Shown here piece after piece: positions 4,958 to 57,286 of a DNA stretch of 64,000 nt. The position numbers and the translations under genes are program-made. The notes under the pieces were generated by a model. It had not been told where the DNA came from. It worked only from the letters and a program-made list of their open reading frames with translations, and made no database searches. Origin of the DNA: Bacteroidota bacterium (GTDB taxonomy: Bacteria; Bacteroidota; Bacteroidia; Chitinophagales; Saprospiraceae); NCBI GenBank assembly GCA_024642705.1, contig JAHEAQ010000006.1, forward strand, positions 1 through 64,000, written 5' to 3'. Each line of letters begins with the position of its first letter. Position 1 is the stretch's first letter.

Positions 4958-6196
4958 ATGAAAAAATACTTAATAGTAATATTAACACTACCTATTTGCT
5001 TTGGATTTAATTATGCCCAAGCTCAAAAAGTAGAAGAGAAAAAAGTGGTCATTATTACTAAAACAATTGATGATAAAGGAAATGTAAAAGAAGAAAGAAT
5101 AGAAAAATCAGGTGCGGAAGCAGACCAATACATTAAATCAAATGTGGAAGTTCAAGATGTTGTTGAAATTAATAAAAAAGTTGAAAAAGAAGTCACCGTT
5201 GAAATAAATGATGAAAATGGACAAATGCAAAAAACCATTCAAATTAGGATTAAAGATGGAAAAGATGGCGAACAAATTATGGAATGGGAAGGTGAAGATG
5301 AAAGCCAAATGCCTGAAGAAATGAAGAATCAAATGAAAGATGTCGAAATTATTATTGACAATTCTGGTGATAAAAAAGAGGAGAATGTGATAATAAGAAG
5401 AAATAATAATAAGGAAGAGAAAGAAATCCATATCATGATTGAAGATGACAATGGAAATGAAAAGATAATCAGGTGGAACGGCGAAGGTGAAATGCCTGAA
5501 CAGATGAAGGAATTAATGGAAAACGAGGATATTGTTATTCACTCCAATGATAAGCATCACAAAGATGTAAAAATAATTCGCAGATCAAATGACCAAGATC
5601 CAAAAATAATTGAATGGAATGGAGAGGGTGATTTACCTGCTGAAATTATAGAGAAACTTGAAAAAGAAGGTGTCCAAATAGATGGAGAAAATGTATTTAT
5701 TTTCAAAGGAGGTTCTGATAATGAAAAAAAGGATCATAAGATCATCATCAAAAGAAAAGGCGATAAAATGGAATGGCATTCTGATGATATGAAAAATGAT
5801 GATGATGTTATTATTTTGAAAAAAGGTCAGAACTTTGAATTTAATTCTGAAGATGGTGGTCATGTTATTGTTAGAGAACAAGATTTAGAACATGAAGGCA
5901 AACAAGAAATGAGGGAAATGGAAAGGAATATAATTTCTATGGATGATGGCAAACCAAGATTAGGAGTTATGATTGAAAATCACGTGGACGGTGTTGAAAT
6001 ATTAGAAGTTATACCAGGTTCTGCAGCTGAAAAAGCAGGAATTAAAACAGGAGATATCATCTATAAAGTTGGGAAAAGGAATGTAGGAAGTGTTCTTCAA
6101 TTGACCGATAGCCTAAAATCAATTAAATCTGGAGAATCAGTGAAAATAAAACTCTTAAGATCAGGAAGTAATGTAACTATTAAGGCTACTTTATAA
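4958..6196 (+). CDS. Secreted acidic repeat protein with C-terminal PDZ domain
   Basis: A 412-residue protein with an N-terminal signal peptide (cleavage near AQA, residue 22). Residues about 75-305 are strongly charged and low in complexity and contain a repeated unit: a hydrophobic pair, Trp, then an acidic/Gly motif, Pro and an amphipathic stretch (W110 in IMEWEGEDE, W173 in IIRWNGEGEMP, W220 in IIEWNGEGDLP, W273 in MEWHSDD). Residues about 330-412 form a PDZ domain (GKPRLGVMIE, EVIPGSAAEKAGIKTGDIIY). It is the third gene of the BlaI/M56 operon and ends in a hairpin terminator. A PDZ module suggests it presents or binds C-terminal peptides in the periplasm, perhaps with the M56 protease; that is inference. 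No catalytic residues are visible. Confidence 0.85.
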   Translation: MKKYLIVILTLPICFGFNYAQAQKVEEKKVVIITKTIDDKGNVKEERIEKSGAEADQYIKSNVEVQDVVEINKKVEKEVTVEINDENGQMQKTIQIRIKDGKDGEQIMEWEGEDESQMPEEMKNQMKDVEIIIDNSGDKKEENVIIRRNNNKEEKEIHIMIEDDNGNEKIIRWNGEGEMPEQMKELMENEDIVIHSNDKHHKDVKIIRRSNDQDPKIIEWNGEGDLPAEIIEKLEKEGVQIDGENVFIFKGGSDNEKKDHKIIIKRKGDKMEWHSDDMKNDDDVIILKKGQNFEFNSEDGGHVIVREQDLEHEGKQEMREMERNIISMDDGKPRLGVMIENHVDGVEILEVIPGSAAEKAGIKTGDIIYKVGKRNVGSVLQLTDSLKSIKSGESVKIKLLRSGSNVTIKATL

Positions 6197-6216
6197 GAGG
6201 ATCACAATAAAAATAG

Positions 6217-6246
6217 AAAAGGAGTCAAATTTGGCTCCTTTTTTAT
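6217..6246 (+). terminator. Rho-independent terminator of the BlaI/M56/PDZ operon
   Basis: GGAG and CTCC arms flanked by A and T runs form AAAAGGAG...CTCCTTTT around a TCAAATTTGG loop, with a following T-run. It lies 20 bp after the PDZ stop codon. Confidence 0.8.
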
Positions 6247-6320
6247 TTTTATACAGTAATTATTAAAATAATAAAGAATTGGTACTGTCCTTGTATTCTA
6301 ATTATTAAACATTGAATTTG

Positions 6321-7184
6321 ATGATGAATAAGGAGAAAGCTATTCTTTTAATGTATTGTAAAGATAAAAGAGGAATACTTGCCGAGGTGACTAACTTCAT
6401 TATGGGCAATAATGGAAATATTATCAATCTTGACCAACATGTAGATCAAGATGAAAACTATTTCTTTATGAGAATAGAATGGGAACTTGAAGGTTTTTCA
6501 ATTCCAAATGAAAAAATCGAAGAATATTTCAGCACATTAATTGCATTTAAATATTCTGCTTGGTATAAACTACACTTTGAGCCAAATAAGCCCAATATTG
6601 CTATTTTTGTTTCTCAATATAGCCATTGTTTTTTGGACATTCTTTCAAGGTATGAAGCAGGTGAATGGAAAATTAATATTCCATGCATCATTAGCAATCA
6701 TGAAAAATTTAGAAGTATTACGGATAGATTTGGCATTCCTTTCTTTTACTTTCCTGTAAAAAAGGACAATAAAAAAATTCTAGAAGCTGAGGAACTTGCA
6801 CTATTGAAAGAAAAAAATGTGGATTTGATTATTCTTGCTCGTTATATGCAAATACTTTCAAATGAATTTTGTGCTAAATATCCTAATCAAATTATTAATA
6901 TCCATCATTCTACATTGCCCGCTTTTCCGGGAGCTAAACCTTATGAGTCTGCCTTCAAACGTGGTGTAAAATTCATGGGTGCTTCTGCTCATTATGTCAC
7001 CGCTGATCTTGATGAAGGTCCAATCATTGCTCAAGATGTAATTTCAATCTCTCACAGAGATTCCATAAGTGATATGAAGAGAAAAGGAAGAAATATTGAA
7101 AAAATAGTGCTTGCTAATGCATGTTGGGCACATTTAAATCATCAAGTTCTTACTTATAATAATAAAACTGTTGTTTTTGATTAA
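6321..7184 (+). CDS. purU: Formyltetrahydrofolate deformylase
   Basis: Hydrolyses 10-formyl-THF to THF and formate, feeding formate to purine synthesis and balancing one-carbon pools. The protein has an N-terminal ACT domain (ILLMYCKDKRGILAEVTNFI, about residues 7-85) and a C-terminal formyltransferase-fold domain with NIHHSTLPAFPGAKPY (about 193-208) and the catalytic Asp in ADLDEGPII (about 232). Length (287) is typical. The open frame extends to a TTG at 6312, but two adjacent ATG codons at 6321 and 6324 give the normal family start; I chose the first. It is a single gene between two terminators. Confidence 0.94.
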   Translation: MMNKEKAILLMYCKDKRGILAEVTNFIMGNNGNIINLDQHVDQDENYFFMRIEWELEGFSIPNEKIEEYFSTLIAFKYSAWYKLHFEPNKPNIAIFVSQYSHCFLDILSRYEAGEWKINIPCIISNHEKFRSITDRFGIPFFYFPVKKDNKKILEAEELALLKEKNVDLIILARYMQILSNEFCAKYPNQIINIHHSTLPAFPGAKPYESAFKRGVKFMGASAHYVTADLDEGPIIAQDVISISHRDSISDMKRKGRNIEKIVLANACWAHLNHQVLTYNNKTVVFD

Positions 7185-50923: not shown

Positions 50924-52054
50924 ATGAAATTTAATATTGAAAAAAAAGATACCGGATCTAAGGCCAGAGCTGGATTTATACATACAGATCATGGAATTAT
51001 TCAGACTCCTATATTCATGCCTGTTGGTACGGTTGCAACTGTAAAAGGAATCCATCAAAAAGAATTAGAAGATGTAATCAATGCAGAAATTATTCTTGGA
51101 AACACATATCATCTTTATCTAAGACCAGGTGAAGAAATAATTAATAAATGCGGAGGCTTACATAAATTCATGTCATGGGATCGTCCACTTTTAACGGATA
51201 GTGGCGGTTATCAAGTTTATTCATTAAGTAACAACAGAAAAATTACTGAAGAAGGAGTAATGTTTTCTAGCCATGTCGATGGTTCAAAACATTTTTTCTC
51301 TCCTGAGAAAGCTATCGATATTCAGAAAAATATTGGGGCAGATATTATTATGGCTTTTGATGAATGCACGCCATATCCATGCGAATATAACTATGCGAAG
51401 AGGAGCATGGAAATGACACATCGTTGGCTAGACCGATGTATTGAACATATGAAAAAGACAGAAGGCATTTACGGATATGAACAATCCTTGGCCCCGATTA
51501 TACAAGGAAGCGTTTATAAAGATTTAAGAAAAAAATCTGCAGAATTTATAGCTTCTAGAGATGCTGATATCAATGCAATTGGAGGCCTATCAGTAGGTGA
51601 GCCCCATGAAGATATGTATGCTATGACGGAAGTGGTTACAAATATACTCCCAGAAAATAAACCTAGATATTTAATGGGAGTCGGTACCCCTGCCAATATA
51701 CTTGAAAGTATTTCTTTGGGTATTGATATGTTCGATTGTGTATTGCCAAGCAGAAATGCAAGACACGGTTTGTTGTATACTTCAGATGGTATCATCAATA
51801 TAAAAAATAGTAAATGGTCCGAAGATTTTGGACCTATAGATCAAAATCTTGGAATAGAAAGCAGCTCAAGATATTCAAAAGCATATCTCAGGCATCTTTT
51901 TCAAGTTAAAGAATTGCTCGGACCTCAAATTGCAACCTTGCATAATTTAAGCTTTTATCTTTATTTGGTTCGGGAAGCCAGAAAAAGGATTGTGGATGGG
52001 AGTTTTTCAAAATGGAAGTCCGAAATGGTTCCTAAATTACAAACGAGATTATAA
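50924..52054 (+). CDS. tgt: tRNA-guanine transglycosylase lacking the usual zinc cysteines
   Basis: Exchanges guanine-34 of certain tRNAs for preQ1 on the way to queuosine. The 376 residues carry PIFMPVGTVATVKGIHQKEL, the active-site LLTDSGGYQVYSL with the catalytic Asp, QGSVYKDLR, LMGVGTPANILESI and the nucleophile Asp in MFDCVLPSRNARHG. The C-terminal zinc site normally reads PxDxxCxCYTCxxxSRAYLRHL; here it is PIDQNLGIESSSRYSKAYLR, with no Cys, though the later His in ATLHNLSFYL remains. It ends 3 bp before the lptF/G gene. Confidence 0.94.
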   Translation: MKFNIEKKDTGSKARAGFIHTDHGIIQTPIFMPVGTVATVKGIHQKELEDVINAEIILGNTYHLYLRPGEEIINKCGGLHKFMSWDRPLLTDSGGYQVYSLSNNRKITEEGVMFSSHVDGSKHFFSPEKAIDIQKNIGADIIMAFDECTPYPCEYNYAKRSMEMTHRWLDRCIEHMKKTEGIYGYEQSLAPIIQGSVYKDLRKKSAEFIASRDADINAIGGLSVGEPHEDMYAMTEVVTNILPENKPRYLMGVGTPANILESISLGIDMFDCVLPSRNARHGLLYTSDGIINIKNSKWSEDFGPIDQNLGIESSSRYSKAYLRHLFQVKELLGPQIATLHNLSFYLYLVREARKRIVDGSFSKWKSEMVPKLQTRL

Positions 52055-52057
52055 CAA

Positions 52058-53146
52058 TTGCTGAAAAAAATTGACATATATATTATAAAGAAATTTCTTA
52101 CAACTTTCTTTTTTACCATTTTACTAATCACAATGGTGGCTGTTGTTATTGATTTTAGTGAAAAAGTTGAAAAATTCTTAGATGAATCTGTTAGTTGGAA
52201 AGAAATAATTTTTGATTATTATTTGAATTTTATACCTTGGATTAATGGGTTATTGTGGCCAATATTTGCTTTAATTGCAGTAATTTTCTTCACAAGTAGG
52301 CTTGCAAAAGACTCTGAAATAATTTCAATACTAGCTGCAGGAATTAGCTATTATCGCCTGCTTATTCCCTATATTCTTGCATCGTCGATTTTAGCATTAC
52401 TTTTATGGTATGGCAACAATTATGTGATTCCCAAAAGCAATTATGTAAAGAATACATTCGAAAATACATACATTTGGAAAAGCAATAAAAAAACATTGAA
52501 TGAAAATGTTCATTTTTTTATTGCTCCAGGTGAAAAAGCTTTTGTTCGTTATTTTCGACTTCGAGATTCAACAATGATAGATTTTAGGGTTGAAAAATTT
52601 AAAGATGGAAAACTTACAAGGTTGTTGAAAGCGAAAAGGTTGCAATATAATAATACTACTAAAAAATGGGGTATGAGCAATTATGTGCTGCGAACTTTTG
52701 ATGGAATGAATGAAGAAATTGAAGTCAAAACTGGAATTGAATTAGACACAAGTTTTGCGTTTACACCTGAAGATTTCATTAGATATTCTAATGAAATGGA
52801 GATGATGACTTCCCCTGCTATAAAAAAGCACATTGAATATGAGGCAGAAAAAGGAATTGGGAATTCAAAAAAATACTTAGTTGAATATTACCGAAGGAGT
52901 GCTGATCCTGTTACTATCATAATTTTAACCTTAATAGGTGTTTCTTTAGCTTCTAGAAAAGTTAGAGGTGGACTCGGTTTGAATTTAGCTTTAGGACTTG
53001 TTATTGGTTCTCTTTTTGTTTTGATTTCTAAGTTTTCTATCACCTTTGCTTACGGTCAAACCTTAACTCCTCTTCTTGGAATATGGCTTCCCAACATAAT
53101 TTTCACCATTGTCGCCATTTATCTGCTCTCTAAAGCACAAAAATAA
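52058..53146 (+). CDS. LptF/LptG-family lipopolysaccharide export permease
   Basis: A 362-residue inner-membrane permease of the YjgP/YjgQ family, which with LptB extracts LPS for transport. It has three N-terminal hydrophobic helices (IKKFLTTFFFTILLITMVAV and others), a periplasmic beta-jellyroll (about 135-265) and three C-terminal helices (TIIILTLIGVSLASRKVRGG). The start is a TTG 3 bp after the tgt stop; the next residues KKIDIYIIKKFL are the family start. A tgt-lptG pair is common in this phylum. The 3' third (from 52770) is part of the 1258-bp repeat and recurs at 54567. Confidence 0.93.
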   Translation: MLKKIDIYIIKKFLTTFFFTILLITMVAVVIDFSEKVEKFLDESVSWKEIIFDYYLNFIPWINGLLWPIFALIAVIFFTSRLAKDSEIISILAAGISYYRLLIPYILASSILALLLWYGNNYVIPKSNYVKNTFENTYIWKSNKKTLNENVHFFIAPGEKAFVRYFRLRDSTMIDFRVEKFKDGKLTRLLKAKRLQYNNTTKKWGMSNYVLRTFDGMNEEIEVKTGIELDTSFAFTPEDFIRYSNEMEMMTSPAIKKHIEYEAEKGIGNSKKYLVEYYRRSADPVTIIILTLIGVSLASRKVRGGLGLNLALGLVIGSLFVLISKFSITFAYGQTLTPLLGIWLPNIIFTIVAIYLLSKAQK

Positions 53147-53239
53147 TTTTGTTTACTCTTTTTTAAAAAAATATAAACATGCTATACACTGTATATCAAC
53201 TGTTTATATTATTTTAATAAAATTTTAACTAAATATGCA

Positions 53240-53269
53240 TTTGTTTTGTTTAATTTATTTGTATATTTG
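53240..53269 (+). promoter_or_regulatory. Promoter of the ECF sigma gene, copy 1
   Basis: TTTG at 53240 and TATATTTG at 53262 are 18 bp apart and fit both promoter elements of this phylum. The ATG follows 19 bp after the -7 box. Confidence 0.6.
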
Positions 53270-53288
53270 TTAAACAAAATAGAAACAT

Positions 53289-53819
53289 ATGTCATCATTA
53301 GAATTTAATAATCAATTAAACGCGCTTTCAACAATTCTTAATTCATTCGCATATAATTTGACGAAGAACTCAGAAGATGCTAAAGATTTGTATCAAGAAA
53401 CTGCATACAGAGCTATTACTAACAGGGATAAATTTATGCCTGGTACTAATTTGAAAGCTTGGTTGTTTACTATTATGAAAAATATATTTATCAACAATTA
53501 TAGAAGAAAAGCAAAAGCTAATACTATAGTTGATTCAACTGAAAATATGTATTTCATTAATTCAGGTTCTGCAACAATTTCAAATGATGCAGGTTCTAAT
53601 ATTTTCATGCAAGAATTGAAAGACATGATTGAAAGTTTAGAAGATTCTATTCGTATTCCTTTTGAAATGCATTATGAAGGATTCAAATATCAAGAAATTG
53701 CTGATGAATTAGATCTTCCTTTAGGAACCGTGAAAAGTAGAATTTTCTTCGCAAGAAGAGCGTTGAAAGAAATGATTGAAAGACAGTTTGGTGATATTGA
53801 AGCAGCTAGAGCTGTATAA
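53289..53819 (+). CDS. ECF-type RNA polymerase sigma factor, duplicate copy 1
   Basis: A 176-residue sigma-70 family factor with region 2 (KNSEDAKDLYQETAYRAITN, GTNLKAWLFTIMKNIFINNY) and region 4 (PFEMHYEGFKYQEIADELDL, PLGTVKSRIFFARRALKEMI). Regions 1 and 3 are missing, as in ECF factors. No anti-sigma gene is adjacent. It has its own promoter and hairpin terminator, so it is a monocistronic unit. A second copy with an identical protein sequence lies at 55086. Dosage could be doubled if both copies are real. Confidence 0.93.
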   Translation: MSSLEFNNQLNALSTILNSFAYNLTKNSEDAKDLYQETAYRAITNRDKFMPGTNLKAWLFTIMKNIFINNYRRKAKANTIVDSTENMYFINSGSATISNDAGSNIFMQELKDMIESLEDSIRIPFEMHYEGFKYQEIADELDLPLGTVKSRIFFARRALKEMIERQFGDIEAARAV

Positions 53820-53836
53820 AAAATTATAAAGAAAAA

Positions 53837-53871
53837 TCAGCGCTTTATTCTTATTTTAGCGCTGACTTTTT
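53837..53871 (+). terminator. Rho-independent terminator of the sigma gene, copy 1
   Basis: TCAGCGCT and AGCGCTGA form an 8-bp stem followed by CTTTTT. It ends 2 bp before the mutY ATG, so mutY would need readthrough or a promoter inside this hairpin region. Confidence 0.85.
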
Positions 53872-53873
53872 CT

Positions 53874-54062
53874 ATGAACAATTCTAAACTCTTTTCTTCA
53901 ACACTTCTAGATTGGCATGCTCAAGTCGATCGTTTTCTTCCTTGGAAAGAAGATAACAATGTTTTCTATATTTGGCTATCTGAAATCATCCTTCAACAAA
54001 CTAAAGTTGAACAAGGCATTCCTTATTCCAGTTTTACACTGAAAAAAATTTACAAATTTTAA
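53874..54062 (+). pseudogene. Truncated mutY (first 51 codons) fused to unrelated sequence
   Basis: This has the same first 51 residues as the intact MutY at 55671, through [11 protein letters not shown], then diverges to SSFTLKKIYKF and a stop. The divergence point at 54028 is the end of the 1258-bp repeat. The catalytic helix-hairpin-helix, the Asp and the Fe-S cluster are missing, so it is inactive. It is a by-product of the duplication. Confidence 0.92.
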
Positions 54063-54566
54063 GTAACTAGTAGTCTATTGCCTAAAATTGAAATTCCAAA
54101 TTTGGGCGCCCCGTAAATCTCATTTGTATCAAGAAATGATATTTTATTTGAAAGCTTTATTTCTCAATTTTGTGATGTATAGATTCGTGACATTGAACCA
54201 GAATTGGTGTTAAATGAGATTTAAATTTTTATAATGTATCACAACGAATTCAAAAAGCGTTTTGGAGTATTGGTTTTTACACCATGACCATAATCTATTT
54301 TAAAACAAGATAAGATGATAATTTGTGTAGAATAAGGTTAAATAAAGACTCCAAAAAAGTAAATCTCAAATATATCTTGGATTAATGATAGGATGATGTG
54401 GCAATACCATTGAAGACAATGTTTATGAAAAGAATATTTATTGGGACATACCTAGGCCAATAATAGAAAAGATGTTAATAAATATTGGAATACCTAAACA
54501 AATGCTTATTGCTAAGGCTGTTCTGAAGAACATTAAAAGTATCAACAAGCTTAACGTTTATGCCTT
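54028..54566 (+). other. 539-bp unique segment between the two repeat copies
   Basis: This DNA occurs once in the window. It contains an 11-bp perfect inverted repeat (AAATCTCATTT at 54115-54125 and AAATGAGATTT at 54212-54222), a GC-rich GGGCGCC patch at 54105-54111 that stands out in this AT-rich background, and an open frame from 54400 running on into the repeat (stop at 54577) with WDIPRPIIEKMLINIGIPKQ and LKNIKSINKLNVYALR. I do not recognise a transposase or integrase. It looks like decayed or intergenic DNA from elsewhere in the genome or from another molecule. Confidence 0.5.
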
Positions 54567-54943
54567 AAGATTTCATTAGATATTCTAATGAAATGGAGAT
54601 GATGACTTCCCCTGCTATAAAAAAGCACATTGAATATGAGGCAGAAAAAGGAATTGGGAATTCAAAAAAATACTTAGTTGAATATTACCGAAGGAGTGCT
54701 GATCCTGTTACTATCATAATTTTAACCTTAATAGGTGTTTCTTTAGCTTCTAGAAAAGTTAGAGGTGGACTCGGTTTGAATTTAGCTTTAGGACTTGTTA
54801 TTGGTTCTCTTTTTGTTTTGATTTCTAAGTTTTCTATCACCTTTGCTTACGGTCAAACCTTAACTCCTCTTCTTGGAATATGGCTTCCCAACATAATTTT
54901 CACCATTGTCGCCATTTATCTGCTCTCTAAAGCACAAAAATAA
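54567..54943 (+). pseudogene. 5'-truncated lptF/G remnant
   Basis: The last 116 codons or so of the LptF/G gene, identical in protein sequence to residues 247-362 of the copy at 52058. The N-terminal helices and most of the jellyroll are missing. An in-frame ATG at 54593 (MEMMTSPAIKKHIEYEAEKG) could start a fragment, but it would lack half of the membrane domain. It is a duplication by-product. Confidence 0.92.
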
Positions 54944-55036
54944 TTTTGTTTACTCTTTTTTAAAAAAATATAAACATGCTATACACTGTATATCAACTGT
55001 TTATATTATTTTAATAAAATTTTAACTAAATATGCA

Positions 55037-55066
55037 TTTGTTTTGTTTAATTTATTTGTATATTTG
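55037..55066 (+). promoter_or_regulatory. Promoter of the ECF sigma gene, copy 2
   Basis: Identical to the copy 1 promoter: TTTG at 55037 and TATATTTG at 55059. Confidence 0.6.
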
Positions 55067-55085
55067 TTAAACAAAATAGAAACAT

Positions 55086-55616
55086 ATGTCATCATTAGAA
55101 TTTAATAATCAATTAAACGCGCTTTCAACAATTCTTAATTCATTCGCATATAATTTGACGAAGAACTCAGAAGATGCTAAAGATTTGTATCAAGAAACTG
55201 CATACAGAGCTATTACTAACAGGGATAAATTTATGCCTGGTACTAATTTGAAAGCTTGGTTGTTTACTATTATGAAAAATATATTTATCAACAATTATAG
55301 AAGAAAAGCAAAAGCTAATACTATAGTTGATTCAACTGAAAATATGTATTTCATTAATTCAGGTTCTGCAACAATTTCAAATGATGCAGGTTCTAATATT
55401 TTCATGCAAGAATTGAAAGACATGATTGAAAGTTTAGAAGATTCTATTCGTATTCCTTTTGAAATGCATTATGAAGGATTCAAATATCAAGAAATTGCTG
55501 ATGAATTAGATCTTCCTTTAGGAACCGTGAAAAGTAGAATTTTCTTCGCAAGAAGAGCGTTGAAAGAAATGATTGAAAGACAGTTTGGTGATATTGAAGC
55601 AGCTAGAGCTGTATAA
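55086..55616 (+). CDS. ECF-type RNA polymerase sigma factor, duplicate copy 2
   Basis: The 176-residue product is identical to that of the gene at 53289, with the same promoter and terminator. In the unduplicated arrangement implied by intact mutY, this gene would lie between lptF/G and mutY, so one of the copies is extra. Region 2 and region 4 are complete, so it should be functional. Confidence 0.93.
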   Translation: MSSLEFNNQLNALSTILNSFAYNLTKNSEDAKDLYQETAYRAITNRDKFMPGTNLKAWLFTIMKNIFINNYRRKAKANTIVDSTENMYFINSGSATISNDAGSNIFMQELKDMIESLEDSIRIPFEMHYEGFKYQEIADELDLPLGTVKSRIFFARRALKEMIERQFGDIEAARAV

Positions 55617-55633
55617 AAAATTATAAAGAAAAA

Positions 55634-55668
55634 TCAGCGCTTTATTCTTATTTTAGCGCTGACTTTTT
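55634..55668 (+). terminator. Rho-independent terminator of the sigma gene, copy 2
   Basis: Identical to the copy 1 hairpin (TCAGCGCT/AGCGCTGA, CTTTTT), directly before the intact mutY ATG. Confidence 0.85.
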
Positions 55669-55670
55669 CT

Positions 55671-56738
55671 ATGAACAATTCTAAACTCTTTTCTTCAACA
55701 CTTCTAGATTGGCATGCTCAAGTCGATCGTTTTCTTCCTTGGAAAGAAGATAACAATGTTTTCTATATTTGGCTATCTGAAATCATCCTTCAACAAACTA
55801 AAGTTGAACAAGGCATTCCTTATTTTTTAAAATTTAAAGCTCGATTCAAAAACATTTTTGAACTAGCTTCTGCTTCAGACGAAGAAATCATGAAGCTTTG
55901 GGAAGGTTTAGGTTATTACTCACGGGCAAGAAATATGCACGAAGCTGCCAAACAAATTGTTCAAAATGGCGGACAATTTCCAAATACATACGAAACATTA
56001 TTGCAATTAAAAGGTGTTGGCCCTTATACAGCAGCAGCCATAGCGAGTTTCGCATACAAGATACCTATTCCTGTCATCGATGGAAATGTAAATAGAGTTA
56101 TTTCAAGAATTTTTGGCATTCATGAACCCATAGATAGTTCATCAGGAAAAAAAGAAATATTTCAAAGATTGTTAGAAGTATTTGACTCAAAAAAACCATC
56201 CGAATTCAATCAAGCTATAATGGATTTTGGAGCTTTACAATGCACACCAAAATTACCAGATTGCAAAATTTGCCCTTTTAATATGGATTGTTCTGCTTTC
56301 TTAACCGACACTATTTCCTTACTTCCAATTAAGACAAAGCGAATAATTAAAAAGAATAGAACATTTAACTACATCATAATAATCTTTGAAAATAAAATTC
56401 TGATTAGAAAAAGAAAAGAAAAAGATATTTGGAAGCATTTGCACGAATTCATATTAATTGAAGGCCAATCAGTCAGCATTCAATCCATAAAAAATTCAAT
56501 ATCAAAGTTATGTCTTGATTCAAAAATCACATTTAAAAAAATGTCTGCACCCATTACTCACTTGCTCACTCATCAAAAACTGGAAGTATTTTTCTTTCAT
56601 TTCACAGTTAATCATTTCACTCTAGAAAAAGATACGGACTATTTTTTTGTAGATGAACAAAACATAAATAATTTTGCATTTCCGAAAATAATTGAAAACT
56701 ATTTAAAAGAGAATTTAATTTATTTGAAAGCGAATTGA
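55671..56738 (+). CDS. mutY: A/G-specific adenine glycosylase
   Basis: Removes adenine mispaired with 8-oxoguanine. The 355 residues include the catalytic Glu region ([20 protein letters not shown]), the helix-hairpin-helix [20 protein letters not shown] with the catalytic Asp in [13 protein letters not shown], and the [4Fe-4S] cluster ligands C-x6-C-x2-C-x5-C in [19 protein letters not shown]-terminal NUDIX-like domain recognises 8-oxoG. It is the first gene of mutY-ssb-gldE-gldD, a conserved group in this phylum. Its first 51 codons lie in the 1258-bp repeat. Confidence 0.96.
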
Positions 56739-56755
56739 TATTTACCGTACCTTTG
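56723..56755 (+). promoter_or_regulatory. Internal promoter of ssb
   Basis: TTTG at 56723 and TACCTTTG at 56748, 21 bp apart, match both elements of the Bacteroidota promoter. It overlaps the mutY stop and lies 33 bp before the ssb ATG, so ssb can be expressed independently of mutY. It also argues against the frame start at 56735. Confidence 0.6.
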
Positions 56756-56788
56756 CATCAAATTGAATTAAGAATAAAAAAACCTGAT

Positions 56789-57286
56789 ATGATAAATAAA
56801 GTAATATTAATCGGAAATTTAGGCAAAGATCCTGAAGTAAGACATTTGGAAAATGGAGGTGTGGTAGGAAAATTCTCTTTAGCAACTAATGAAAATTATA
56901 GAGACAAATCAGGTGAATGGCAAACCATAACTGAATGGCATAATATTGTAGTTTGGCGACAATTGGCTGAACGTGCCGAAAAAAGTTTGAAAAAAGGAAT
57001 GCAAGTATATATTGAAGGAAAATTAACTACGCGGAAATGGCAAGATCAAAATGGGGCTGATCGATATTCTACAGATATTGTAGCAAACACATTAAGAATT
57101 TTGGATAGAAAAGATAGCAATGATAGTTATTCTGACAATGATTATCTATCAGAAAATGAAGTCTCGAACAAATTAACAACTTCAAAAGAAAAGGAAGTTT
57201 TTAATATTCCAGGAAGTAAATCAAATTCAAATGATAATTCTGGAGCTCAAGATTTCACTGATATGGATGATGATCTTCCATTTTAG
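56789..57286 (+). CDS. ssb: Single-stranded DNA-binding protein, main copy
   Basis: A 165-residue OB-fold protein protecting single-stranded DNA during replication and repair. The start [20 protein letters not shown] is the classic SSB N-terminus; the open frame runs upstream to 56735, but those residues overlap a promoter. The core carries [20 protein letters not shown] and [20 protein letters not shown]. The tail after residue 110 is disordered and acidic and ends in DMDDDLPF, the partner-recruiting tip. Its place between mutY and gldE is conserved in this phylum. Confidence 0.96.

Follow-up and report, generated by a model that had tools for sequence, protein, structure and literature searches.

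How did a sigma factor gene come to stand twice, in identical copies, between two neighbours that each retain one whole copy? The question is raised by a 64,000-nucleotide stretch of a Saprospiraceae genome (Bacteroidota bacterium, GenBank assembly GCA_024642705.1, contig JAHEAQ010000006.1, positions 1 to 64,000), called the window here. It contains a direct repeat, R, that carries the 3′ part of an lptF/lptG-type permease gene (lptG below), a complete gene for an extracytoplasmic function (ECF) sigma factor and the 5′ part of mutY; a 539-bp spacer, S, separates the two copies. We lean towards a real and very recent tandem duplication in the main chromosome, in which the 1258-bp segment was repeated together with 539 bp of filler.

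An exact repeat that doubles a sigma gene

A preliminary account made without database searches (the sequence-only reading) had described an exact-looking 1258-bp direct repeat with an offset of 1797 bp. Comparison of the two copies bears this out: 1258 of 1258 bases are identical, the edges lie where they had been placed, and the match ends sharply at both limits. The pair is the sole exact repeat of at least 25 bases, direct or inverted, in the window, and its identity is not chance. The gene content given in that reading, with the one intact lptF/G at copy 1, the one intact mutY at copy 2 and a doubled sigma, likewise agrees with the open reading frames (ORFs) and the family profiles; the sigma gene lies entirely within R and is thereby duplicated (Table 1). 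Since lptG and mutY each retain one whole copy, the event would have been cheap for the cell, which would gain another copy of sigma together with its promoter region and, through it, a dosage effect.

Single-sigma order in relatives

The locus was compared with those of the best 80 sigma relatives, several of which are cut by contig ends. The order lptG-sigma-mutY with a single sigma gene was found in 36, sigma-mutY only in 16, lptG-sigma only in 8, sigma alone in 13 and two sigma genes in 7; a second match to lptG or mutY was found in none of the 80. In each of the two genus mates a single sigma is matched at E <= 1e-45. The ancestral order was likely lptG-sigma-mutY, with one sigma gene. 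Because relatives have this single-sigma order the duplication appears to be derived, and because its copies are unchanged it would be of recent date, or its copies would have been evened out recently. As it stands, the assembly thus shows two direct identical copies against a single-copy order in relatives, as in a recent tandem duplication.

The nearest sigma genes are those of Portibacter marinus (84% identity) and P. lacus (82%), and the window sigma groups with these two in a tree (100/96), apart from both sets of tandem pairs described below; we take the bacterium to be a Portibacter-like member of the Saprospirales. Among the matches listed for the rest of the family, two to five matches to this sigma per genome are frequent (counted irrespective of adjacency), and paralogues of it appear to be common there. 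In P. marinus (L033) lptG lies elsewhere on the contig, and genes that are recO-like and dehydrogenase-like by their translations stand upstream of sigma on the other strand. Since lptG is separated from sigma-mutY in this species, the genus seems to have rearranged the locus before.

Relatives have duplicated this sigma gene in tandem and kept it, as one old pair in six loci and one younger pair in another. Such pairs occur in other Saprospirales at L045 and at L046, L047, L056, L057, L060 and L062, and 6 of the 7 also adjoin mutY. The 5′ copies of the latter six loci form one tree group (97/94); of the 3′ copies, those of five loci cluster with three single genes (97/95), and that of L060 falls beside both groups. 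We read the six pairs as one old duplication, and the single genes L072, L083 and L110 may mark lineages that lost the 5′ copy. The L045 pair (5075–5614 and 6146–6685 in a Saprospiraceae genome; 87% DNA and 97% protein identity) looks like a separate, younger duplication. With at least two earlier independent duplications, a genuine third is credible. Regulator genes are commonly duplicated in tandem, and the present duplication is of an ordinary sort.

Nature of the spacer

As DNA, S is single copy in its own genome: a search with S at E <= 10 gave 41 rows, of which one is S itself and the other 40 are short, with E 0.005 or worse. Among 298 family genomes, 40 were matched at E <= 0.01, the own genome included; the matches in the other 39 are short (20–90 bases) and scattered over S, and we read them as AT-rich noise, so that no convincing DNA relative of S was found in this set. 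Plasmids gave zero matches, phages only a 38-base stretch (E 4e-3), present in two records for the same phage, and viral contigs none to any of three exact patterns (S, the R/S join and R). No open frame of at least 60 amino acids lies within S. No intact replication or mobilisation gene was found in it by ORFs, by the plasmid search or by searches with frame pieces, of which the three put to Pfam and the three put to PHROGs (one from the minus strand) returned nothing.

Protein comparison gave a different kind of answer. Frames of S were searched with stops read as X, each time against 150 genomes. Two of them match a single 520-amino-acid gene in another genome of the family, G095, with their order preserved and per-genome E values of 1.5e-5 and 1.5e-4. 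G095 is the best of the 150 genomes for both frames, at distant identities of 38% and 34%; at E <= 0.1 the frames matched 9 and 11 of the 150 genomes, the own genome counted, and besides the own genome only G095 falls below 1e-3. The G095 gene encodes an IS1634-family transposase (NF033559, 2.5e-107, 359.9 bits). A frameshift-tolerant alignment of S with this transposase scores 191.5 and places 54075–54552 on residues 54–278; 150 shuffles give a mean of 48.4 (standard deviation 7.0, maximum 69.5), and the opposite strand gives 57.5. No open transposase gene survives in S, which has 10 stops in one frame and a frame change between the two matches, and S itself is not reported by the NF033559 profile. 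The protein matches and the alignment together largely explain the nature of S: it is an inner section of a transposase gene that died long ago. The IS1634 family name is provisional, taken from the one relative, G095.

The rest of this fossil was sought in all of the contig that holds the window (C63) and in the first 200 kb of contig C186, and was not found; the best scores besides S, 130.5 and 139.5, are general background. In the scan of C63 the best path for S extended into R and scored 233.5 instead of 191.5. We do not read this extension as homology, as unrelated stretches attain 110–139 under those loose gap costs. A second, different piece of a decayed IS1634-like transposase (L137) occupies the last 260 bases of contig C189 and ends at the contig end; it was rejected as the source of S, its DNA identity with S being limited to short pieces. 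No match in this genome or its two genus mates passes the IS1634 family cut-off. The source of S may sit in an unassembled part of the genome.

The joins and a proposed mechanism

At its right end S resembles the lptG bases that directly precede R (Table 1); 16 or more matches in 22 were reached at a frequency of 1.1e-4 in 199,372 trials of random position pairs in the window. Just inside the left end of R lies a hairpin, which, counting its own second copy, supplies the only perfect stems of at least 11 bp with a loop of 3–8 in the window and is the strongest there. The DNA fold at the copy 2 edge has a z of −3.0, and lptG of P. lacus lacks that palindrome at the equivalent place. Hairpin and left homology together would be the expected trace of an illegitimate, replication-linked join, and would be irrelevant to an assembler. 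A terminator-like palindrome at the right end of R (54009–54028, minus strand) was left unused, since it needs G-T pairs and is not among the perfect hairpins.

The most likely mechanism is a template switch during replication or an equivalent illegitimate joining at short homology. DNA synthesis would have stopped at 54027, within mutY, and resumed on the transposase fossil; after 539 bases it would have returned to lptG, at 52770, a join that the 22-base imperfect match and the hairpin would favour. The 3′ part of lptG, the sigma gene with its promoter region and the 5′ part of mutY would thereby have been copied a second time.

Assembly status and alternatives

The window is part of C63 (116,493 bases) in a genome of 5.7 Mb, 194 contigs and 99.96% completeness. 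Exact repeats and N gaps were surveyed in 516,493 bases (all of C63 and parts of C186, C176 and C20), about 9% of the genome. After R the longest exact repeats there are 121 bases, and these flank N gaps: of five N100 gaps, three have identical 121-base flanks (C63 115047–115388; C186 at 45322 and at 98679), one has 65-base flanks and one has none. Contigs here apparently overlap end to end by k and were scaffolded rather than merged. The identical 121-base flanks give the draft the appearance of a de Bruijn assembly of short reads at k=121. Nineteen contig ends (17 and both ends of C63) share no 21-mer and gave nothing on the k of the assembler. A search for a small-subunit ribosomal RNA (SSU rRNA) gene, positive in 9 of 14 control genomes, found none in this one. 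This suggests that the genome was binned from a metagenome; a missing SSU rRNA is common in such genomes.

Several points weigh against a real duplication of the kind we favour. R, 1258 bases and ten times k, is uncrossable at k=121, so the path lptG-R-S-R-mutY would be the assembler's inference and the assembly itself cannot vouch for it. Template switching copies, and the source of S should therefore persist, yet a second copy of S is absent from the assembly. The right join, where the start of S is compared with the continuation of mutY, shows no similarity, and the hairpin and the left homology were noticed post hoc. Taken as 150 tests each, the protein matches to G095 come to about 0.002 and 0.02; their weight lies in the same gene being hit in order and in the frameshift-tolerant alignment. 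Pure invention by the assembler is nevertheless unlikely, because both joins must have been in the reads: R-to-S and S-to-R would have to exist in some DNA.

The sequence-only reading had offered a 1797-bp circle integrated by single crossover, a tandem duplication with DNA inserted, and a strain-mixture assembly error. Of these, the second fits best, the first found no support in a spacer that is a slice of a decayed transposase gene and matches no plasmid, and the third, or another assembly effect, stays in play. In its present form the third would have a dominant chromosome of lptG-R-mutY, with R-S-R, S-R repeats or an R+S circle confined to a minority strain or molecule; the assembler would have walked the loop once. 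We regard this as possible though doubtful. It accords with R being ten times longer than the apparent k of the assembly, with the SSU rRNA gene that was not found and with the lack of any other exact repeat above 121 bases in the surveyed 516 kb. Both joins must nonetheless occur in reads, two independent chimeras sharing S would be improbable, and the left join resembles a recombination site.

An old duplication around an IS1634-like element, in which gene conversion kept the two arms the same as the element decayed, would suit the much decayed state of the transposase gene in S, and the 16/22 similarity at the left edge could then be an eroded part of the duplicated segment. We think it unlikely: identity is sharp to both ends of R with no similarity past the right end, the lptG and mutY fragments have zero changes, the first 8 of the 22 bases overlap the sequence aligned with the transposase (to 54552), and a second sigma is absent from both genus mates.

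Because a short-read graph cannot count recurrences of the 1797-bp unit (S+R), a variable number of sigma copies is conceivable, and the locus might be a live, expandable array. We give this small credence; if true, a regulator would be switched through changes in its copy number, in a family for which relatives show two or more earlier tandem duplications.

Single-crossover integration of a 1797-bp circle carrying R and S has in its favour a geometry that is just what a Campbell-type insertion leaves, and is very improbable given the plasmid, phage, viral-contig and open-frame results for S and an R so letter-identical to the adjoining chromosomal copy that the circle would have to derive from this or a near-identical genome.

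Other features of the locus

Each sigma copy probably has its own promoter. A site of the form TTTG-N18-TATATTTG, a type of motif that we take to be a Bacteroidota promoter, stands upstream of each copy, and the assignment rests on TATATTTG and its surroundings being found upstream of sigma in P. lacus too; the 11 such sites in the window against 7.67 expected by chance are weak evidence on their own. A scan for sigma-70-type promoters was uninformative (17 found, 17.2 expected). No tRNA gene was found in the window, and Rfam gave zero matches in 52000–57000.

Table 1. Positions in the window of the repeat, the spacer and the features in and around them
Feature	Position	Strand	Remarks
Repeat R, copy 1	52770..54027	+	lptG 3′ part, promoter-like site, sigma, mutY 5′ part; 1258/1258 against copy 2
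Repeat R, copy 2	54567..55824	+	1258/1258 against copy 1
Spacer S	54028..54566 (539 bp)	+	Single copy; inner section of a decayed IS1634-like transposase gene
lptF/lptG-type permease, whole	52058..53146	+	PF03739 2.5e-70 and ORF; start outside R, end within copy 1
lptF/G 3′ fragment in copy 2	54593..54943		Open frame, 116 amino acids; ORF list
ECF sigma factor, copy 1	53289..53819	+	176 amino acids; PF04542 6e-14, PF08281 1.2e-12; TIGR02937 above cut-off
ECF sigma factor, copy 2	55086..55616	+	Identical to copy 1
mutY 5′ fragment	53874..54027	+	First 154 bases; truncated at end of copy 1; open frame continues to 54062 in spacer
mutY, whole	55671..56738	+	TIGR01084 291.5 bits (cut-off 286.5); start in copy 2, end outside
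Promoter-like TTTG-N18-TATATTTG	53240..53269 (again 55037..55066)	+	Upstream of each sigma copy
22 bases at right end of S	54545..54566	+	16/22 match to lptG 52748..52769, directly before R
Hairpin	52773..52797 (again 54570..54594)	.	11-bp perfect stem, loop 3; starts 3 bases inside left end of R

Comparison with known systems

The IS1634-family insertion sequences (NF033559) are the known elements that S resembles, through its alignment with part of the 520-residue transposase; unlike them, it is just an inner section and is broken by many stops and frameshifts.

For the joining itself, PMC3161906 describes template switching with inserted nearby sequence and microhomology in amplification in Escherichia coli. 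The microhomology-mediated break-induced replication (MMBIR), or long-distance template switch, of the Lac system treated there shares with our locus a direct repeat, extra sequence at the join and perhaps short homology at one join (16/22 on the left, none on the right); in our locus, by contrast, the source of the filler was not found in the assembly and there is no sign of selection as an amplification.

A further parallel is given by the sigma pairs of other Saprospirales, which belong to the same gene family and likewise stand head to tail. Those pairs have diverged to 70–87% DNA identity, whereas the copies in the window are identical. If real, the second copy is a newly arisen duplicate of a regulator gene, still unaltered, and would allow the first steps of sigma-factor divergence to be followed.

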